A stretch of 64,000 nucleotides of DNA from a virus. Below are positions 3,387 through 64,000 of this stretch, one piece after another (the first letter of the stretch is position 1; each line of letters begins with the position of its first letter). The stretch is taken from positions 18,838 through 82,837 of the IMG/VR virus record IMGVR_UViG_3300040801_005525. One strand, 5' to 3'. A model generated the notes under the pieces. It ran no database searches. It was not told where the DNA came from and saw only the letters and a program-made list of their open reading frames with translations. The translations under genes and the position numbers were made by a program.

Positions 3387-3704
3387 TCATGAATCATCAT
3401 GCACGTCGTGCATGCCCGTCACATCGGAGAAGAGCTCCGGTCTGATTTCAACACGGAGGAGCTTCTCTCCAGTCGGGGTCTTTTGATAGATGGTCTTCTC
3501 AACCATCATGACACCCGGGACAAAATCCTCGAGCTCGTCACCAAAGGCACTGAACAACTCTGCTGAACTGTAACTGCGCGTGTGCTTCACGAATGTCGAG
3601 TTCGCCTCTTCCTTTGCAGCGTTGGCTTCCCTGAGCCTCTTACGTGCTCGAGGTCGTCTTCTATTCTTGTCGCGGTTACGCCTTGTGCCTCGCCGAGCTC
3701 CCAT
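3387..3704 (-). CDS. Small basic-N-terminus protein (105 aa)
   Basis: Residues 1-35 are very rich in Arg and Lys (motif RRNRDKNRRRPRARKRLRE), a likely nucleic-acid-binding tail. The remainder is acidic with short strands (LLRVEIRPELF). No family recognised. It lies 11 bp downstream of the ribbon-helix-helix gene and is probably co-transcribed with it from the promoter near 4.4 kb. Confidence 0.65.
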   Translation of the reverse strand: MGARRGTRRNRDKNRRRPRARKRLREANAAKEEANSTFVKHTRSYSSAELFSAFGDELEDFVPGVMMVEKTIYQKTPTGEKLLRVEIRPELFSDVTGMHDVHDDS

Positions 3705-48357: not shown

Positions 48358-48549
48358 TCAGCCCTGTTCACGGTAGCGCCTGTGCAGCGCGCCAAAGGTC
48401 CATATCCACGCCAGACACAGGCAAGAGAGGATCCCGGTGCCAAGCAACGAGCATAGCCAGTGCAGATCGAATCTCGCTACAAAGAGCGCACACAACATGC
48501 CCACAGGCAACGTCTCCATGTAGGCGTACAGCCATGCTCGCCAACTCAT
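48358..48549 (-). CDS. Small membrane protein (63 aa), two TM segments
   Basis: Start overlaps the DUF4326 gene stop (ATGA). Hydrophobic helices (LPVGMLCALFVARF; WLCSLLGTGILSCLCLAWIW) joined by a short loop. No family recognised. Confidence 0.55.
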   Translation of the reverse strand: MSWRAWLYAYMETLPVGMLCALFVARFDLHWLCSLLGTGILSCLCLAWIWTFGALHRRYREQG

Positions 48550-49019
48550 GCCATCTTCCCTTCTAGCCTCGCCCTGAGCACCGGATCCACGACATCCTGT
48601 CCCTCGGCTATCCCGAGCACAGCTCTGTACCTCGCGATGAACCCCGCGAGCACACGGCGTGGGTCATCCGAGTCCGCACACGCGGCGAGGATGTCCCCGT
48701 GACACGCCTGTGGCGCGCAAAAGCACGCGAGCAGCTGGCCGCGCAGCTCATGGACTTCATCGATCAGGCCCGTGCGCTTCACATGCTCACAGTAGGGCCA
48801 CAGGCACCTCGCCTCGCTCACCGGCGTACGCGGCTTCTCGAGGGGGAAGGGGTTTCCCCAACGGGTCGGGCGCCCTCCCCTACCGCGTCCGATGTAGAGA
48901 TGTGACGCCTTCTCGTGGCGCGCCCTATGAACCGTGGTGACGCGTGTGGCCTCTTGCGGCACACAGGCGGCGCACGCTCGAGACGCGTGAGCCGTCACGT
49001 TGACCTGCTCGGTGCTCAT
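48546..49019 (-). CDS. DUF4326 protein (157 aa)
   Basis: The DUF4326 signature is clear: YIGRGRGGRPTRWGNPFPLE (about 42-61) and LRGQLLACFCAPQACHGDIL (about 92-111), with the conserved RWGNPF and C-x-C-x(4)-CH. The N-terminus includes CAACVP. Metal binding is likely; function is not established, though such proteins are frequent in phages. First gene downstream of the promoter module at 49057-49145, with GGAGC before the ATG. Confidence 0.75.
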   Translation of the reverse strand: MSTEQVNVTAHASRACAACVPQEATRVTTVHRARHEKASHLYIGRGRGGRPTRWGNPFPLEKPRTPVSEARCLWPYCEHVKRTGLIDEVHELRGQLLACFCAPQACHGDILAACADSDDPRRVLAGFIARYRAVLGIAEGQDVVDPVLRARLEGKMA

Positions 49020-49056: not shown

Positions 49057-49145
49057 CATTCGATCAAAATCAGCCCTGTGTGTCAATGATGAACTGAGCA
49101 TAATGCTCAGTTTACACAGAGTTCACACTGTAAATGATTTACAGT
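49057..49145 (-). promoter_or_regulatory. Promoter module 1: TTGACA-N17-TCGAAT with two palindromic boxes
   Basis: Minus strand -35 TTGACA (49081-49086), 17 bases, -10 TCGAAT (49058-49063), about 40 bp before the DUF4326 gene. Seven bases upstream of the -35 lies palindrome A, CTGAGCATAATGCTCAG on the plus strand (49094-49110); further upstream palindrome B, ACTGTAAATGATTTACAGT (49127-49145). The same layout with identical 17-bp spacing occurs at 55613-55708. Confidence 0.75.
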
Positions 49146-54505: not shown

Positions 54506-54884
54506 CGCACGCTCCAGACAAGCGGGGCACCTCGTTGTACTCGAGGTGGCCGAGCAGCGCGCCGAGGCGCTCGAAGCGGCGAATCGGATGCACAGGCTCC
54601 CCATCGACCATGCGCGACACCTCCCAGGCCTTGAGCTCGTTGTGGGTGATGAAGAACTCGAGCCCGGAGAGCTCCACCATAGCGAGCACCTCGGCCTCGT
54701 CATCTGGCTTCCCCATCTCACGCAGCGCGGGCATCGCCCGCATGTGCCAGCTGAGCTCCTCACGCGGGGTGTTGTAGTTCACGTTGTAGGTGTTGGGCTC
54801 GAGCAGCGCATACCCCTTGGGCCAGAGTCCGGACGCTGTACTCGGCTTGCCGGTGGGTGCAGAGGGGGGTGGGGTTTTACTCAT
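54492..54884 (-). CDS. Hypothetical protein (130 aa)
   Basis: Start in an ATGA overlap. Disordered N-terminus (SKTPPPSAPTGKPSTASG, coded by a copy of the dispersed repeat), then helices (REELSWHMRAMPALREMGKP; RRFERLGALLGHLEYNEVPR). No family recognised. Confidence 0.55.
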   Translation of the reverse strand: MSKTPPPSAPTGKPSTASGLWPKGYALLEPNTYNVNYNTPREELSWHMRAMPALREMGKPDDEAEVLAMVELSGLEFFITHNELKAWEVSRMVDGEPVHPIRRFERLGALLGHLEYNEVPRLSGACDEGE

Positions 54885-54899
54885 GGATTTTTCTCTTTT
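54857..54899 (+). repeat. Dispersed G-rich/T-rich repeat, copy 11
   Basis: GTGCAGAGGGGGGTGGGGTT followed by TTACTCATGGATTTTTCTCTTTT; encodes SKTPPPSAP at the N-terminus of the gene at 54492-54884 and spans its start codon. Confidence 0.65.
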
Positions 54900-55186
54900 G
54901 AGCCTGCACCAGACGTGACAGCTATTCTGGATGGGACAAAGTGAGCACGGCGACGGGAGGCGTCCTCGCGAGAGGGGAAGCTGTGGAGGCAGAAGATGTG
55001 ATGGGCCTGACCGAGCACATAGGGGGCAGTCCTCTCGCCCTTGAGCAGGGTCTTCAGGGTGCCAGCCTGGCAGTCGAGCAGACCTGCCACAGCGTCTTCG
55101 CCCCAGAGCGTGACGGCGCGGCGCGTGGCGAGCGCGACCTCACGGCGATAGGGGCTCGTGCTGGGATGAAGGGGTGGAAAGGTCAT
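54881..55186 (-). CDS. Possible HTH-type DNA-binding protein (101 aa)
   Basis: ATG at 55186 or GTG at 55234; neither has a ribosome site. The middle reads like a helix-turn-helix (RREVALATRRAVTLWGEDAV, then AGLLDCQAGTLKTLLKGER), similar to non-binding-looking antirepressor or transcription-factor helices. No family recognised. First gene of the 55-49 kb leftward series, but about 420 bases after its nearest promoter. Confidence 0.5.
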   Translation of the reverse strand: MTFPPLHPSTSPYRREVALATRRAVTLWGEDAVAGLLDCQAGTLKTLLKGERTAPYVLGQAHHIFCLHSFPSREDASRRRAHFVPSRIAVTSGAGSKEKNP

Positions 55187-55612
55187 GGAGAGTGTGCCGA
55201 CTTTGAAGAGAGGGTCTCTCGTGGCGACGCCCACGATTCGTGATGAAAGGGAACCTGTCGTGGTGTGCGAGGGGGTGATTCATGCTGGCCAAAGCACAAG
55301 GAGGGTTGTGGTTTGGTGTCCCTTGCACGTTCACGAAGACCTTGCTGTGGCACGAGTCCGAGGGCTCATCGCCGGAGAGAGGCCTCTCTCTTCAAAGAGG
55401 CTACCGAAGTATGTGTGGTGTGATTACTTCATGAGTGTGCTCCGTATGGGTTGCTGCACGCTTGACCGCTGGCGTGTACAGGGCCGTCATGGGTTCACAC
55501 CTGGCCTTGACCTCTTCTCCCCTCGAAAGGGGAGGCTCATGAACGAAAGAGGCGACGGACGCACAGGATACGCTGACGAGGGATGGATTGTGTCGTGTCC
55601 GAAGTACCCCTC
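55187..55612 (-). other. Long leader region, no confident gene
   Basis: About 425 bases between promoter module 2 and the first downstream leftward gene. Minus-strand frames are short (17-29 codons) and a rightward 169-codon frame ends in the palindromes, so is suspect. Hairpins CTCCCC-TTTC-GAGGGGAG and GCCTCT...AGAGGC are seen on the leftward transcript, so a structured 5' leader or small RNA is possible. Confidence 0.4.
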
Positions 55613-55708
55613 CATTCGATCAAAAATGGGGATCGGTGTCAACGGTGAACTGAGCATTATGCTCAGTTCACCGTTGAGCCATGATGAACTGTAAACCGTT
55701 TACAGTTC
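55613..55708 (-). promoter_or_regulatory. Promoter module 2: TTGACA-N17-TCGAAT with two palindromic boxes
   Basis: Minus strand -35 TTGACA (55637-55642), 17 bases, -10 TCGAAT (55614-55619). Palindrome A, CTGAGCATTATGCTCAG, is at 55650-55666 within a 39-bp perfect-except-centre palindrome (55639-55677) that reaches the -35. Palindrome B (55686-55708) is ACTGTAAACCGTTTACAGT and overlaps the stop of the next gene. The two modules share CATTCGATCAAAA exactly 37 bp from the A box. Confidence 0.8.
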
Positions 55709-56756
55709 ACATGCCCATCGCGAGCGCGGTCACGACCATCTTGAGCACCTCGAACGCGAGGTTCACACCGATCCCCTGAGCGAGCACAGGCCAGTTCTCC
55801 ATGTGCTTGTAGTAGTGGAACGCGTTCTTGATTGCCTGCATGCTCATGCCATCGTTTTGAGCGTGGGCCACGCACTCCCTGGCCACATCGATGGAGGTCT
55901 TGTTCGTCACATCGACTCGCTCGAGGTAACTCAGGAGCTTGATCATGTCCGCATGAGAGCCATCCTCTTGGCGGTCATTCATCGTGCCCTGCATCAAGTG
56001 CACAAGGTGTCCTTGATAAATGCTGGGATCTTCGATCTTCTCGAATGGAGAGTAGTGTACGGATTGCACCTGAGATACATCACCCAAAGCGCTGGCAACC
56101 TGAAATGTGTTGTGTGATGCGCTATTCTCTATGGTGATGGTCTGAGACTGGTCGATATGAGAGCGCTGTTCACGACGCAACTCATGAGCGATGTACTCAT
56201 CGGCATCCCAACCCTCCTCAACATGCTGGGCAATATCTCGAATCATAAGGCCCAAACCATGCAGCTTTGAAAAACGAAATGGAGCTGTGCCAGCCGCAGA
56301 GAGAACCTTCACTGCGCCTATCCCTTCAAGAACTTCAACAGAGTCATGGATATGATTGATATGATCCTGGCTGAGCTCATCGACCTTCAGATTGAGTGCT
56401 CGGACGATATCACGGCGGTCTACATATCCGCCGTGACGATCACGCAAAGCAATCACAATGGCGTTGAGGATCTCCACAGCAGGGTCAATGGCAGGTCGAC
56501 CGAAAGCTTCTACCCCCTCCATGGTGATTTGATAGCTTCCTTTTCCCTTGATGATAAGCCTTTCCTCAACCAGTTGGGCGAGAGCCCACGAGAGCACCTG
56601 GGGAGCATCAGGGCCATCATCAGGGTCTGGCCTGACCACACTCCAACCGTTGCCCGCTTGGACAAACTCCTCAAGGAGTTCTCGCTTCTTTGCTTTGACT
56701 CGACGTCGAATGGGTTCAACTGACTCCTCTCCACCCTGTTCCTGTTTCACACTCAT
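55707..56756 (-). CDS. Winged-helix-like regulatory protein (349 aa)
   Basis: ATG at 56756 in an ATGA overlap. N-terminal half reads as tandem winged helices (VLSWALAQLVEERLIIKGKG; VEILNAIVIALRDRHGGYVD, then RRDIVRALNLKVDELSQDHI). The middle has SQTITIENSASHNTFQVASA, a polar repeat-like strand of the type seen in some sensor proteins; the C-terminus is hydrophobic (GVNLAFEVLKMVVTALAMGM), perhaps membrane-associated. The gene is visibly less GC-rich than its neighbours, suggesting separate acquisition. Probable regulator; target unknown. Confidence 0.6.
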   Translation of the reverse strand: MSVKQEQGGEESVEPIRRRVKAKKRELLEEFVQAGNGWSVVRPDPDDGPDAPQVLSWALAQLVEERLIIKGKGSYQITMEGVEAFGRPAIDPAVEILNAIVIALRDRHGGYVDRRDIVRALNLKVDELSQDHINHIHDSVEVLEGIGAVKVLSAAGTAPFRFSKLHGLGLMIRDIAQHVEEGWDADEYIAHELRREQRSHIDQSQTITIENSASHNTFQVASALGDVSQVQSVHYSPFEKIEDPSIYQGHLVHLMQGTMNDRQEDGSHADMIKLLSYLERVDVTNKTSIDVARECVAHAQNDGMSMQAIKNAFHYYKHMENWPVLAQGIGVNLAFEVLKMVVTALAMGM

Positions 56757-60247: not shown

Positions 60248-61518
60248 TGCACACCCCCTTTGAGCGCTTCGATGCGCGCGAGCACAGCCTCCCGAGCCTC
60301 GAGCCAACGTGCATTGATGGCATATGGCTCAAGCCAATCCCACGCCTCATCATTGTCCTTGAAGCCTGCTTCACCAAGCAATTCATGGACCTCATACCGC
60401 AGGTGCGAGCCGCCCTCGATGGCCTCGATGGTGACGTCTGCGGCATCGAGGCAGCGCTTGGGCGCGGATGATGGTGTGACGCTCACCTTGTTCCAGCTCG
60501 CCGGGTTCGCCAGCCGCTTCTTGGCGTAGTTGAACAAATGACGGGTGGCACGCTCCCGACAGGTCGCGATCTGCTCCTCGACCTGCGCGAAGAACGCCTC
60601 CTCCCCGAGCAGCGCCACGATGGATGCGATGCCTTGCTCGAACTCCTCGAGGTCTTTGCATGTCTGGCTCCTCAGCACACACCCGTGCCAGGCGAGCAGC
60701 GCCAACGCGTAGCGTGCAGGGTGTCCAATCGCTTCGATGCGCGCTCTGCACCCAGGCTTGTTCGGTACGATCCAATCAAAGTCCTCTGGGCGCACACTTT
60801 GCTCATCCGGCGCCGCGGCACCTTTCACCGACTCATCCAGGCTCGACGGTGCTGTCGCCTGATACGCGGCCTGGGGGACCACTTCATCGACGTCGATGGT
60901 CCTTCGGTCTTCACGAAGGGTCAGCTCGATGACCTCTGCCTTCATGTCCTCGTGATGAAGCTCGAAAGAAGAATCAGAAGAAAATCCATCCCCACCCCCA
61001 TCAGCACACTCGTCGGGTTTTGCACTCCCCCTCGATTCTGTTGTGGGGGGTAGGGGGGGATTATTGATCTGTTTTACTGATCTGTTTATTGGATCGGTTA
61101 TGTCCGAAACTGAGTTTCGCACTCTCCGAAGCTCAGTTTCAGTCCTCTCCGAAACTGAGCTTCGCACTTCGGAAGGATCAGAGGTGCGAAACTGAGTTTC
61201 GCACTCTCCGAAGCTCAGTTTCGCACCCTCCGAAACTAAGCTTCGGACATGTTCGGGTATGGTGAGTGTGTATTGGTAGCGTTCGCCTGGCATACGTGCC
61301 ACGCGAATCCACCCCTCTTCGATGAGGCGTTTTCTGACTTTGGTGAGGTAGCGGGGGTTGCAGCGTACGGCCTTGGCGAGCTGCTTGTCGGAGGGGTAAC
61401 ATTTTCCTCCGGTCTTCCAGTCTGCCCAAAAATTTATCAGACAGTAGAGCACCGTTGTATCGGTGGTGCTCGATGGCCCGTGGTCACGCACGGCCATCAA
61501 ATAATTGTCTCTGAACAT
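60244..61518 (-). CDS. Replication initiator, lambda O-like, with origin inside its gene (424 aa)
   Basis: Start MFRDNYLMAV at 61518 has GAAGGAACGACG at ideal spacing; starts at 61551 or 61578 are possible. Residues about 20-80 form a winged helix (TVLYCLINFWADWKTGGKCY; PSDKQLAKAVRCNPRYLTKV, RKRLIEEGW), the DNA-binding type of O/RepA/DnaD-like initiators. A low-complexity middle (about 105-145) is coded by the iterons, as in lambda O. The C-terminal part is helical and would contact the helicase or loader; loader and DnaB genes follow at once. Role inferred from architecture and context. Confidence 0.75.
   Translation of the reverse strand: MFRDNYLMAVRDHGPSSTTDTTVLYCLINFWADWKTGGKCYPSDKQLAKAVRCNPRYLTKVRKRLIEEGWIRVARMPGERYQYTLTIPEHVRSLVSEGAKLSFGECETQFRTSDPSEVRSSVSERTETELRRVRNSVSDITDPINRSVKQINNPPLPPTTESRGSAKPDECADGGGDGFSSDSSFELHHEDMKAEVIELTLREDRRTIDVDEVVPQAAYQATAPSSLDESVKGAAAPDEQSVRPEDFDWIVPNKPGCRARIEAIGHPARYALALLAWHGCVLRSQTCKDLEEFEQGIASIVALLGEEAFFAQVEEQIATCRERATRHLFNYAKKRLANPASWNKVSVTPSSAPKRCLDAADVTIEAIEGGSHLRYEVHELLGEAGFKDNDEAWDWLEPYAINARWLEAREAVLARIEALKGGVQ
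61037..61075 (+). repeat. Dispersed G-rich/T-rich repeat, copy 13
   Basis: CTGTTGTGGGGGGTAGGGGG, then GATTATTGATCTG; lies beside the first GATC 13-mer of the origin, inside the initiator gene. Confidence 0.6.
61066..61244. other. Replication origin: six iterons next to three GATC 13-mers
   Basis: Three tandem 13-mers start at 61066, 61079 and 61092: GATCTGTTTTACT, GATCTGTTTATTG, GATCGGTTATGTC; the first two match the E. coli DUE 13-mer pattern GATCTNTTNTTTT well. They abut six 13-bp palindromic iterons, consensus GAARCTSAGYTTC, at 61106, 61128, 61151, 61188, 61210 and 61232 (spacings 22, 23, 37, 22, 22), i.e. two groups of three in helical phase. All lie within the initiator gene, as in lambda. 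Confidence 0.85.
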
Positions 61519-62219: not shown

Positions 62220-62257
62220 AAAAAGGGCGCCGATCGGGATGATCGGCGCCCTTTTTT
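62220..62257. terminator. Bidirectional rho-independent terminator
   Basis: Perfect stem AAAAAGGGCGCCGATC / GATCGGCGCCCTTTTT around loop GGGAT, with A and T runs on both sides. It insulates the par operon from the replication module. Confidence 0.9.
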
Positions 62258-62388: not shown

Positions 62389-63474
62389 TCATAGCAGGCC
62401 CTCCATGCTCTTGATGAGCGCGGACAGGCTCTTTGCTTCGACAGGGGTCTCGGCAGGGAGCGGCTTGATGGACCACAACACCCAGAGCTTGCCTTCAGCC
62501 TGGCAGTACTCGCGCGCGGGCACCTTCTGTTGCTCGAAGAGCGCGACCTTGCTCCCGAGCTCCGCGGGGGAGGGGAGCGGCGTGATGACACACTGCCCCT
62601 TCAGGGCAGCCTGTACGGCCTTTCGCCAGGCCGAGTCCGAGGGCTCCCTGAACGCGTTGACGGGCGGGAGAGGAGAGGTCGTCTCGTGCACCTCCTCCTC
62701 CTGTGCCTGTGTGCCAGGTTCGGAGCTCACCGGCGCGTCGAGCGGCACGAGCTGCTCGCCCTGATCGGCGCGCTTGAACACGCCAGTGGGCTGTGCATTG
62801 ACCTCGACCAAAGTGTCAGGCGTCTGAGCATTATGCTCAGATTCCACAGAGGCCGATTTCCTGTTCGACTCTCTGATCCCTGAGACATCGCGTGCCGTCC
62901 CATCCGCGCTCATGACCTTGTCGCGCTCGGGGATGATGTCCTGGTCGACCATCTCGCGGCGCACCTTGCTCACGAAGGTCTGAGACACGCGGCACTTCTG
63001 CGCGATCATGCGGTCAGACCACTTCCTCCACTCCTTGTCGCCAAGCGCCTTCTCCACCACACGGCGCTTATCAGAGCGCGTGCGACGAAGGCCGTGCTTG
63101 TCGTTGACCTGGAAGCTGTAGAGCAGCGCGTCGCGCAGCGTGCCTCGGTGACGCTTGACCTGGAAGTGCGTGATGCCCTTCTTCTTGGCGGCCTTGTAGC
63201 GGTGCCACCCATCCACGAGCCAGATCGTGTCACCCTTCTCGAACACCACGAGCGAGGGCCACTCGTCGCCAGACTGGTCGACGACGATCCCGTCGCTCCT
63301 GACCTTCATGTTCTGGGCGTACTCCTTGACGGCGTTGTCATCCTCGCTGACGCGCGGCTGGAGCTGGCGCTTCAGGGTCACCTCCTCGAGCGCGACCCTG
63401 TCTCGTTTGTCGCGCCCTGCCATCTGACCCACCACCCCGAGGCCCTTGTCACTCTTCTTGCGTGTTGCACCCAT
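62389..63474 (-). CDS. parB: ParB-like partition protein (361 aa)
   Basis: Start MGATRKKSDKG, 8 bp after the ParA stop. N-terminal ParB/Srx-type domain: QLQPRVSEDDNAVKEYAQNM, then a motif DGWHRYKAAKKKGI in place of the usual GxxR GERRYRA, and VKRHRGTLRDALLYSFQVND. A central HTH follows (WSDRMIAQKCRVSQTFVSKV). A divergent variant of the family; the C-terminal half is an acidic, Pro-rich linker and a terminal domain (REYCQAEGKLWVLWSIKPLP). ParA-ParB order and spacing indicate a segregation operon. Palindrome A lies inside the gene. Confidence 0.8.
   Translation of the reverse strand: MGATRKKSDKGLGVVGQMAGRDKRDRVALEEVTLKRQLQPRVSEDDNAVKEYAQNMKVRSDGIVVDQSGDEWPSLVVFEKGDTIWLVDGWHRYKAAKKKGITHFQVKRHRGTLRDALLYSFQVNDKHGLRRTRSDKRRVVEKALGDKEWRKWSDRMIAQKCRVSQTFVSKVRREMVDQDIIPERDKVMSADGTARDVSGIRESNRKSASVESEHNAQTPDTLVEVNAQPTGVFKRADQGEQLVPLDAPVSSEPGTQAQEEEVHETTSPLPPVNAFREPSDSAWRKAVQAALKGQCVITPLPSPAELGSKVALFEQQKVPAREYCQAEGKLWVLWSIKPLPAETPVEAKSLSALIKSMEGLL
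62824..62840. promoter_or_regulatory. Third copy of palindrome A, inside parB
   Basis: CTGAGCATTATGCTCAG, identical to the box at 55650, coding for EHNAQ. There is no promoter in register here, so it may be a partition site, a repressor decoy or an internal silencer. Confidence 0.6.
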
Positions 63475-63481
63475 AATGTCT

Positions 63482-64000
63482 TTAAATCCTTTGCGAAAAC
63501 CATTCGCTGACTGTGCGGTAATCCTGCGCGCCCTTGCTGTCCGGGGCATACTGGTAGATCGGTGTGGCATAGCCCATCGACTCGGCGAACACAATCGAGT
63601 GGTTGATTGGCGGGCTCGTCTGGCCCTCGTACTCGGTGTTCAGGTGTTCGACGACCTGGCTGGCGTGGTTCGTGCGCCCGTGGAGCATCGTCGGCACGAA
63701 CCCGAGCGTGAAGAGGTCGGGGTTCTCATGCTCCCTGACCTCCTCGATGGTCTGAAGCAAGTCATACATGCCGAGCAGCGCGATCGACATGCACTGCACC
63801 GGGATGATCACGGCGTCACTTGCAATCAACACGTTCTGCGTGATCACGCCGAGCTCGGGCGGGGAGTCGATGATGATGTGGTCATACTGCGTGGTGAAGC
63901 CTCGCAGAGTGTCACGCAGGCGTGTGAGCGCCACAGGCCTCTGCGCGAGCTCCGTGGAGACGCGCGCGAGCTGCCTGCCGCCTTCGATCAGGTCCACGCC
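63482..64000 (-). CDS. parA: ParA-type partition ATPase, N-terminus cut off by the window edge
   Basis: 173 residues visible; the frame is open to the right edge. Contains the Walker A' partner motifs downstream of the P-loop: HIIIDSPPELGVITQNVLIA (Walker B region with the D-x-P-P motif) and VIIPVQCMSIALLGMYDLLQ, followed by LFTLGFVPTMLHGRTNHASQ and the C-terminal helix. The deviant Walker A motif lies outside the window. ParA uses ATP-dependent DNA binding to move ParB-bound plasmids. It sits upstream of ParB on the same strand. Confidence 0.85.
   Translation of the reverse strand, partial: GVDLIEGGRQLARVSTELAQRPVALTRLRDTLRGFTTQYDHIIIDSPPELGVITQNVLIASDAVIIPVQCMSIALLGMYDLLQTIEEVREHENPDLFTLGFVPTMLHGRTNHASQVVEHLNTEYEGQTSPPINHSIVFAESMGYATPIYQYAPDSKGAQDYRTVSEWFSQRI

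Follow-up and report, generated by a model that had tools for sequence, protein, structure and literature searches.

The window analyzed here, a stretch of 64,000 nucleotides (bases 18838-82837 of an 82,837-base IMG/VR virus record), contains two matched promoter modules, each with a pair of palindromes upstream, and one of these palindromes is found again inside a parB gene, which raises the question of which protein reads the palindromes and what it does at the two promoters. Both ends of the record fall within a single parA gene, with codons 1-75 at bases 1-225 and the other 172 at the far end, and the two halves join in frame across the ends into a ParA of 247 aa; this record therefore most likely represents a circular, essentially complete genome. 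Genes for a terminase, a portal, and a tape measure protein identify it as a phage genome. The right half is a single long series of minus-strand genes. It starts with parA, parB, a winged-helix gene, an O-like initiator gene with iteron-like repeats, and DnaC-like and DnaB-like genes, continues with two genes that have weak winged-helix signals, module 2, and a block containing a DnaQ-like exonuclease, a Dam-like methylase, and RusA, and ends with module 1, followed by a DUF4326 gene and others. The features concerned are the following (window coordinates; palindromes carry no strand).

48546-49019, minus strand: DUF4326 gene, the first behind promoter 1
49058-49086, minus strand: promoter 1, TTGACA-N17-TCGAAT with an extended -10 TG (-35 at 49086-49081, -10 at 49063-49058)
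49090-49114: box A1, TGAACTG-AGCATAATGCT-CAGTTTA, centered at -51 of promoter 1
49127-49145: box B1, ACTG-TAAATGATTTA-CAGT, centered at -85 of promoter 1
54881-55234, minus strand: 117-aa ORF, putatively coding, the first plausible one behind promoter 2, after a long leader
55614-55642, minus strand: promoter 2, TTGACA-N17-TCGAAT with an extended -10 TG (-35 at 55642-55637, -10 at 55619-55614)
55639-55677: box A2, a perfect 39-bp palindrome around TGAACTG-AGCATTATGCT-CAGTTCA, centered at -51 of promoter 2
55685-55709: box B2, TGAACTG-TAAACCGTTTA-CAGTTCA, centered at -90 of promoter 2
62389-63474, minus strand: parB, encoding a predicted ParB/StrR-like DNA-binding protein of 361 aa
62823-62841: site C in parB (codons 212-217), TCTG-AGCATTATGCT-CAGA, with the 17-bp core of A1 and A2
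62947-63021, minus strand: HTH-coding part of parB, recognition helix VSQTFVSKV
63482-64000, minus strand: parA, C-terminal 172 codons (N-terminal 75 codons at the other contig end, bases 1-225)

The two modules are built as the first-pass annotation had described them, with a common -35, -10, 17-bp spacer, core, and palindromes A and B in the same order. On the minus strand, each reads box B, box A, TTGACA, 17 bp, and TCGAAT, with the extended -10 TG, and the promoter core CATTCGATCAAAA lies at 49057-49069 and 55613-55625. The -35 is good and the -10, TCGAAT, is weak in both promoters, neither of which was listed by a sigma-70 scan. Transcription would start at about 49051 from promoter 1 and at about 55607 from promoter 2, the start being set 7 nt past the -10 for all register figures; by this measure the distance from A to the promoter is constant (-51 in both modules) and that of B is variable (-85 and -90). 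The modules are 80% identical over 59 bp, with the boxes kept and the A-B distance different by 5 bp, indicating that their match is not the product of a simple recent duplication. A third promoter-like copy, TTGAC-N17-TGATCGAATG, is located on the contig (L008) at 3405-3433, outside the window, and has no A or B boxes, which are therefore not a fixed part of this promoter type. In addition, the stop codon of the upstream gene falls inside A in module 1 and inside B in module 2, and the register of the modules therefore follows the promoter, not the end of the upstream gene. Behind promoter 2, a region of 963 nt (54744-55706) has little coding signal and is possibly a long leader that includes the 117-aa ORF; it contains 12-bp complementary arms at 55201-55212 and 55386-55397.

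Boxes A and B represent a single type of site, ACTG-N11-CAGT. They had first been taken as unrelated palindromes, a view at odds with their common arms and same N11 spacing; A2 and B2 have identical 7-bp arms and are equally spaced. The motif occurs exactly four times in the genome, as A1, B1, A2, and B2, with 1.3 occurrences expected by chance; among 30 Markov genomes the highest count was 4. In 100 dinucleotide shuffles, the 25-bp A pattern was matched 0 times when as many as 3 mismatches were tolerated, and for the box B pattern 0.02 matches are expected by chance. The 17-bp A core, CTGAGCATWATGCTCAG, is present in exactly three copies in the whole 82,837-base record, the third of which, at 62824-62840, confirms the reported recurrence of palindrome A inside parB. 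The best match in the genome to the canonical parS, TGTTTCACGTGAAACA, has 4 mismatches; a canonical parS is not required for divergent ParBs.

The parB product belongs to a ParB/StrR-like family that is common in phages. The only family match obtained in Pfam, NCBIfam, and PHROGs was phrog_1033, and its top tblastn hits are phage and plasmid proteins of the ParB-N/HTH type, several carrying an annotation as streptomycin biosynthesis regulators. In an AlphaFold model of its N-terminal half, pLDDT is mostly >90 over residues ~31-180, and a Foldseek search with this model returned Noc, ParB, and KorB at E values of 1e-6 to 1e-4; the predicted architecture is a ParB-CTPase fold plus an HTH. parA lies directly upstream, and its product matches phrog_164 (E 2e-28) and AAA_31 (E 1e-14) on its two halves, as a Walker-type ATPase does; a gene pair of this kind belongs to type I ParABS partition systems. 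The N-terminal extension of ParB, KKSDKGLGVVGQM, resembles the ParA-binding motif (L/F/I)G(K/R)G(L/F/I) without fitting it strictly, and the solitary homologs L142 and L176 start without an extension of this kind. ParA is encoded directly upstream in few homolog loci, one clear and one weak; the clear one, L151 (6134-7557; 36% identity), resembles the window in having an N-terminal extension, and its in-gene palindrome, AACTGGGGAAATCCCCGGTT, is weak. Between parB and the replication genes, a strong and bidirectional-looking terminator hairpin (AAAAAGGGCGCC...GGCGCCCTTTTT) is located at 62220-62256.

A palindrome within the ParB-like gene is not peculiar to this phage. The sample consisted of 160 homolog loci; beyond these and the 79 described below, the family has several hundred further matching loci. 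Of the 40 ACTG-N11-CAGT sites in the 160 loci, 28 are at the ParB-like gene, which makes up 13% of the bases, and most of these are 407 to 426 nt past the match start, just behind the HTH codons. Spacings of 9 and 10 gave a weaker excess at the ParB-like gene and most other spacings none, and a search for palindromes of any sequence gave the same peak behind the HTH codons. A strong palindrome is present at -10 to +60 nt of the HTH end in 71 of the 135 homologs with distinct HTH sequences, compared with 0 to 8 (0-6%) in each of sixteen other 70-nt intervals of the same 135 loci. Since the sequences differ between homologs, a single conserved peptide does not account for these palindromes. Another 79 loci, picked by HTH similarity, had fewer strong palindromes, and their F-V helices again often occurred with AACGTT or AACNGTT. 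Site C, within the gene and 3' of the HTH, is at +117 nt, farther away than the +5 to +17 nt usual in homologs. Two homolog loci (L040 and L074) each carry two neighboring palindromes that agree in their arms and differ in their cores, like A and B in the window. The first-pass annotation had proposed looking in relatives for the palindromes upstream of early genes; in nine relatives, searched as whole records including one 4.5-Mb genome assembly, no copy was found beyond the in-gene palindrome, and promoter copies are therefore not a habit of the family. One ParB-like gene from a Planctomycetes genome (L032, 6405-6559) contains three identical in-gene palindromes at an exact spacing of 66 nt (22 codons).

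The core of the palindrome tracks the recognition helix across homologs. DHK helices occur with GGGG..CCCC in 6/6 cases (0/92 others), DKT/DKF helices with CGGA..TCCG in 6/6 (2/92 others), and F/L/M/Y-V helices with AAC(N)GTT in 23/55 (1/43 others), counts that are descriptive because palindrome thresholds and helix classes were chosen after part of the data had been seen. Cleaner tests are the 70-nt comparison given above and a nearest-helix permutation test, in which nearest non-identical helices have 3.29 of 5 dyad-flanking bases in common versus 1.89 for random pairs, a value reached by 0 of 300 permutations; because the homologs are related by descent, these association tests are not fully independent and their exact significance is uncertain. 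A StrR-like gene on a Streptomyces plasmid (L275, annotated as "streptomycin biosynthesis protein") carries GTTCAACTG-N11-CAGTTGAAC directly after its first HTH, and this palindrome fits the published StrR site, GTTCGActG(N)11CagTcGAAc (PMC8306873). On the simplest reading, the in-gene palindrome would be the target of the gene's own product.

The StrR family, which has StrR as its founding member and consists of pathway activators in Streptomyces, resembles the window ParB in having an N-terminal ParB-like domain and a central HTH; the ACTG-N11-CAGT architecture is common to the StrR site and all four phage boxes, and the copy within parB has its counterpart in the StrR-like gene L275. Unlike StrR, which activates an antibiotic gene cluster, the window ParB is paired with ParA in a most likely circular phage genome, and the outer arms (TGAACTG) and cores of the phage sites differ from the StrR site.

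The helices nearest to VSQTFVSKV are associated with half-sites such as GTTTTCAGT, GTTAACAGT, and GTTTGCAGT. Judged against random 5-mers, the window helix predicts the B2 half-site GTTTACAGT (p 0.0075-0.0175) and, weakly, that of B1, ATTTACAGT (p 0.05-0.12), but not the A half-site ATGCTCAGT (p 0.3-0.55), and B is therefore better supported as a ParB site. The A/C core AGCATWATGCT is found in no homolog examined; the best match to A is the site of L142 (7/9 half-site bases), and the L142 helix, VSQHFVSNL, comes second in similarity to that of the window in one ranking. From the helix code we infer that ParB binds B. It may also bind A and C, a weaker proposal for which the common arms, the spacing, and the copy in parB provide the tie.

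With a probability of roughly 0.6, A, B, and the site in parB are binding sites of a ParABS-type ParB that also regulates two operons. ParB dimers would bind ACTG-N11-CAGT palindromes, in which all sites have the outer arms in common and the recognition helix reads the core. Within the gene, the site would be ancestral in the family and serve as a loading site, in autoregulation, or as a centromere, and in this phage two more A sites and two B sites would have been placed upstream of two promoters feeding DNA-metabolism genes. Bound beside these weak promoters (-51, -85/-90), ParB would regulate them, with activation in the manner of StrR the more likely mode, and partition state would thereby be coupled to early-gene expression during a circular, plasmid-like phase of the phage, which presumably has a plasmid-like life style. 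The regulon proposed in the first-pass annotation retains its link between the early genes and the partition locus, but its binding protein, left unnamed there, is probably the window ParB, to which the in-gene palindromes and the helix-site match point. The alternative offered there, that A is a parS site, holds up and probably forms one explanation together with the regulon link; A and C would then be the parS of this system, with B1 and B2 as further candidates.

We would give even odds to the wider claim that the cognate site is carried inside its own gene, behind the HTH codons, across the whole ParB/StrR-like branch and that this phage has duplicated it into promoters, along with a second box, to yield a regulon. 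With the site in this place, protein and site would move as one cassette, and the site would be predictable from the helix. In the open-access papers searched, no description was found of such a site across the family or of phage promoters that use it. If true, what was a self-contained partition cassette has become a regulon joining DNA segregation to the transcription of early genes, and the phage would be a natural case of a partition protein turned early-gene regulator. A phage ParB-like family of mostly unknown function would gain a probable binder and a testable site, its sites being readable from sequence, and the helix-to-core table, if correct, would predict the sites of many orphan ParB-like and StrR-like regulators.

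As to the sign of regulation, activation is more likely. A good -35 and a weak -10, with A extending from about -63 to -39 and adjoining the -35, are compatible with an activator. The main rival is repression by occlusion or spreading, in which ParB bound beside the -35 would silence both operons in the prophage-plasmid state and titration would relieve them as copy number rises. A indeed lies directly upstream of the -35, which the 39-bp palindrome of module 2 overlaps, a raised ParB level is reported to repress parS-adjacent promoters in P. aeruginosa (PMC5521831), and KorB of RK2, a ParB-family CTPase and transcriptional regulator, represses together with KorA (PMC11790492). KorB is like the proposed phage ParB in being a transcriptional regulator of the ParB family, with a different operator. 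However, the weak -10 TCGAAT, the site centered at -51, and the activator relatives in the StrR family all suggest activation, and we regard repression as unlikely, if the most serious competitor of an activating ParB.

Next in rank, and unlikely as well, is the explanation that only B is a ParB site, with A and C bound by another protein, either of the host (a regulator) or of the phage (winged-helix or HTH), and the likeness of the arms partly a coincidence. It would account for a helix code that fits B and not the A core and for an A core that is strictly preserved in three copies and distinct from that of B, and the phage encodes several other HTH proteins that could fill the role; the identical 7-bp arms and equal spacing of A2 and B2, the third A copy within parB, and the paired palindromes of L040 and L074 nevertheless argue for a common binder.

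It is improbable that the A sites are centromeres only, located upstream of promoters without any transcriptional effect. parS lies within the parT coding sequence in SCP2 ParATS of Streptomyces (PMC12260392), and in SCP1 ParABS of Streptomyces parB1/parB2 contain parS, with three identical inverted repeats per system (PMC13245405). The phage and SCP1 both have three identical sites with one inside parB, which speaks for a purely centromeric role, but the SCP1 sites are arranged around the par operon, whereas the other two phage copies are at promoters ~7 and 14 kb away and are accompanied by a second box type. The identical -51 register to two matched promoters, the only places where B boxes occur, also speaks for a role in transcription. 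Phage N15 has several ParB/SopB sites dispersed over its plasmid-prophage, some of them near regulatory regions; unlike this phage, it has a ParB of a different family and a different site.

The A boxes might instead be operators of the O-like initiator, whose iterons also contain AACTGAG, a word that occurs nine times in the genome, always within A boxes or the repeats of the O gene. We consider this very improbable, since AACTGAG straddles the dyad in the repeats but forms the arm in A, so that the geometry differs, and since it is absent from site C (TCTGAG). The repeats themselves, six near-palindromic units of ~20 bp (CGAARCTSAGYTTCG) at 61100-61250 in the O-like initiator gene, form a candidate replication origin. 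Least probable of all is that the palindromes act in RNA, as terminator or processing hairpins for the genes upstream: module 2 has a long perfect stem and each module is at the 3' end of a gene, but there is no T tract, the boxes are absent from the terminator scan, the register is set by the promoter and not by where the upstream gene stops, and the identical core recurs inside parB.

Searches with DnaB and ParB peptides in viral contigs and with ParB peptides in genome contigs found no close relatives of the phage, and Rfam gave no match. The exact A core had 4 matches in viral contigs, judged to be terminator hairpins or chance; in one of them (L006), an unrelated phage, the site is flanked by terminase and portal genes. 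A pattern of A arm plus -35 had 9 matches in viral contigs, all judged to be chance. For RHH and winged-helix proteins as binders of the boxes, no supporting sequence evidence was found. A divergent region on the contig (L008) at 1724-2088, beside a small Cro/CI-like gene, contains repeated TCGATC words, of which TCGATC-N7-GATCGA at 1876-1894 is a perfect instance, along with a good promoter at 1961-1988. GATCGAATG, common to this region and the promoter core of the modules, has 4 occurrences, one of them beside the repressor gene; that CATTCGATCAAAA might be an operator half of the Cro/CI-like repressor is suggestive only.
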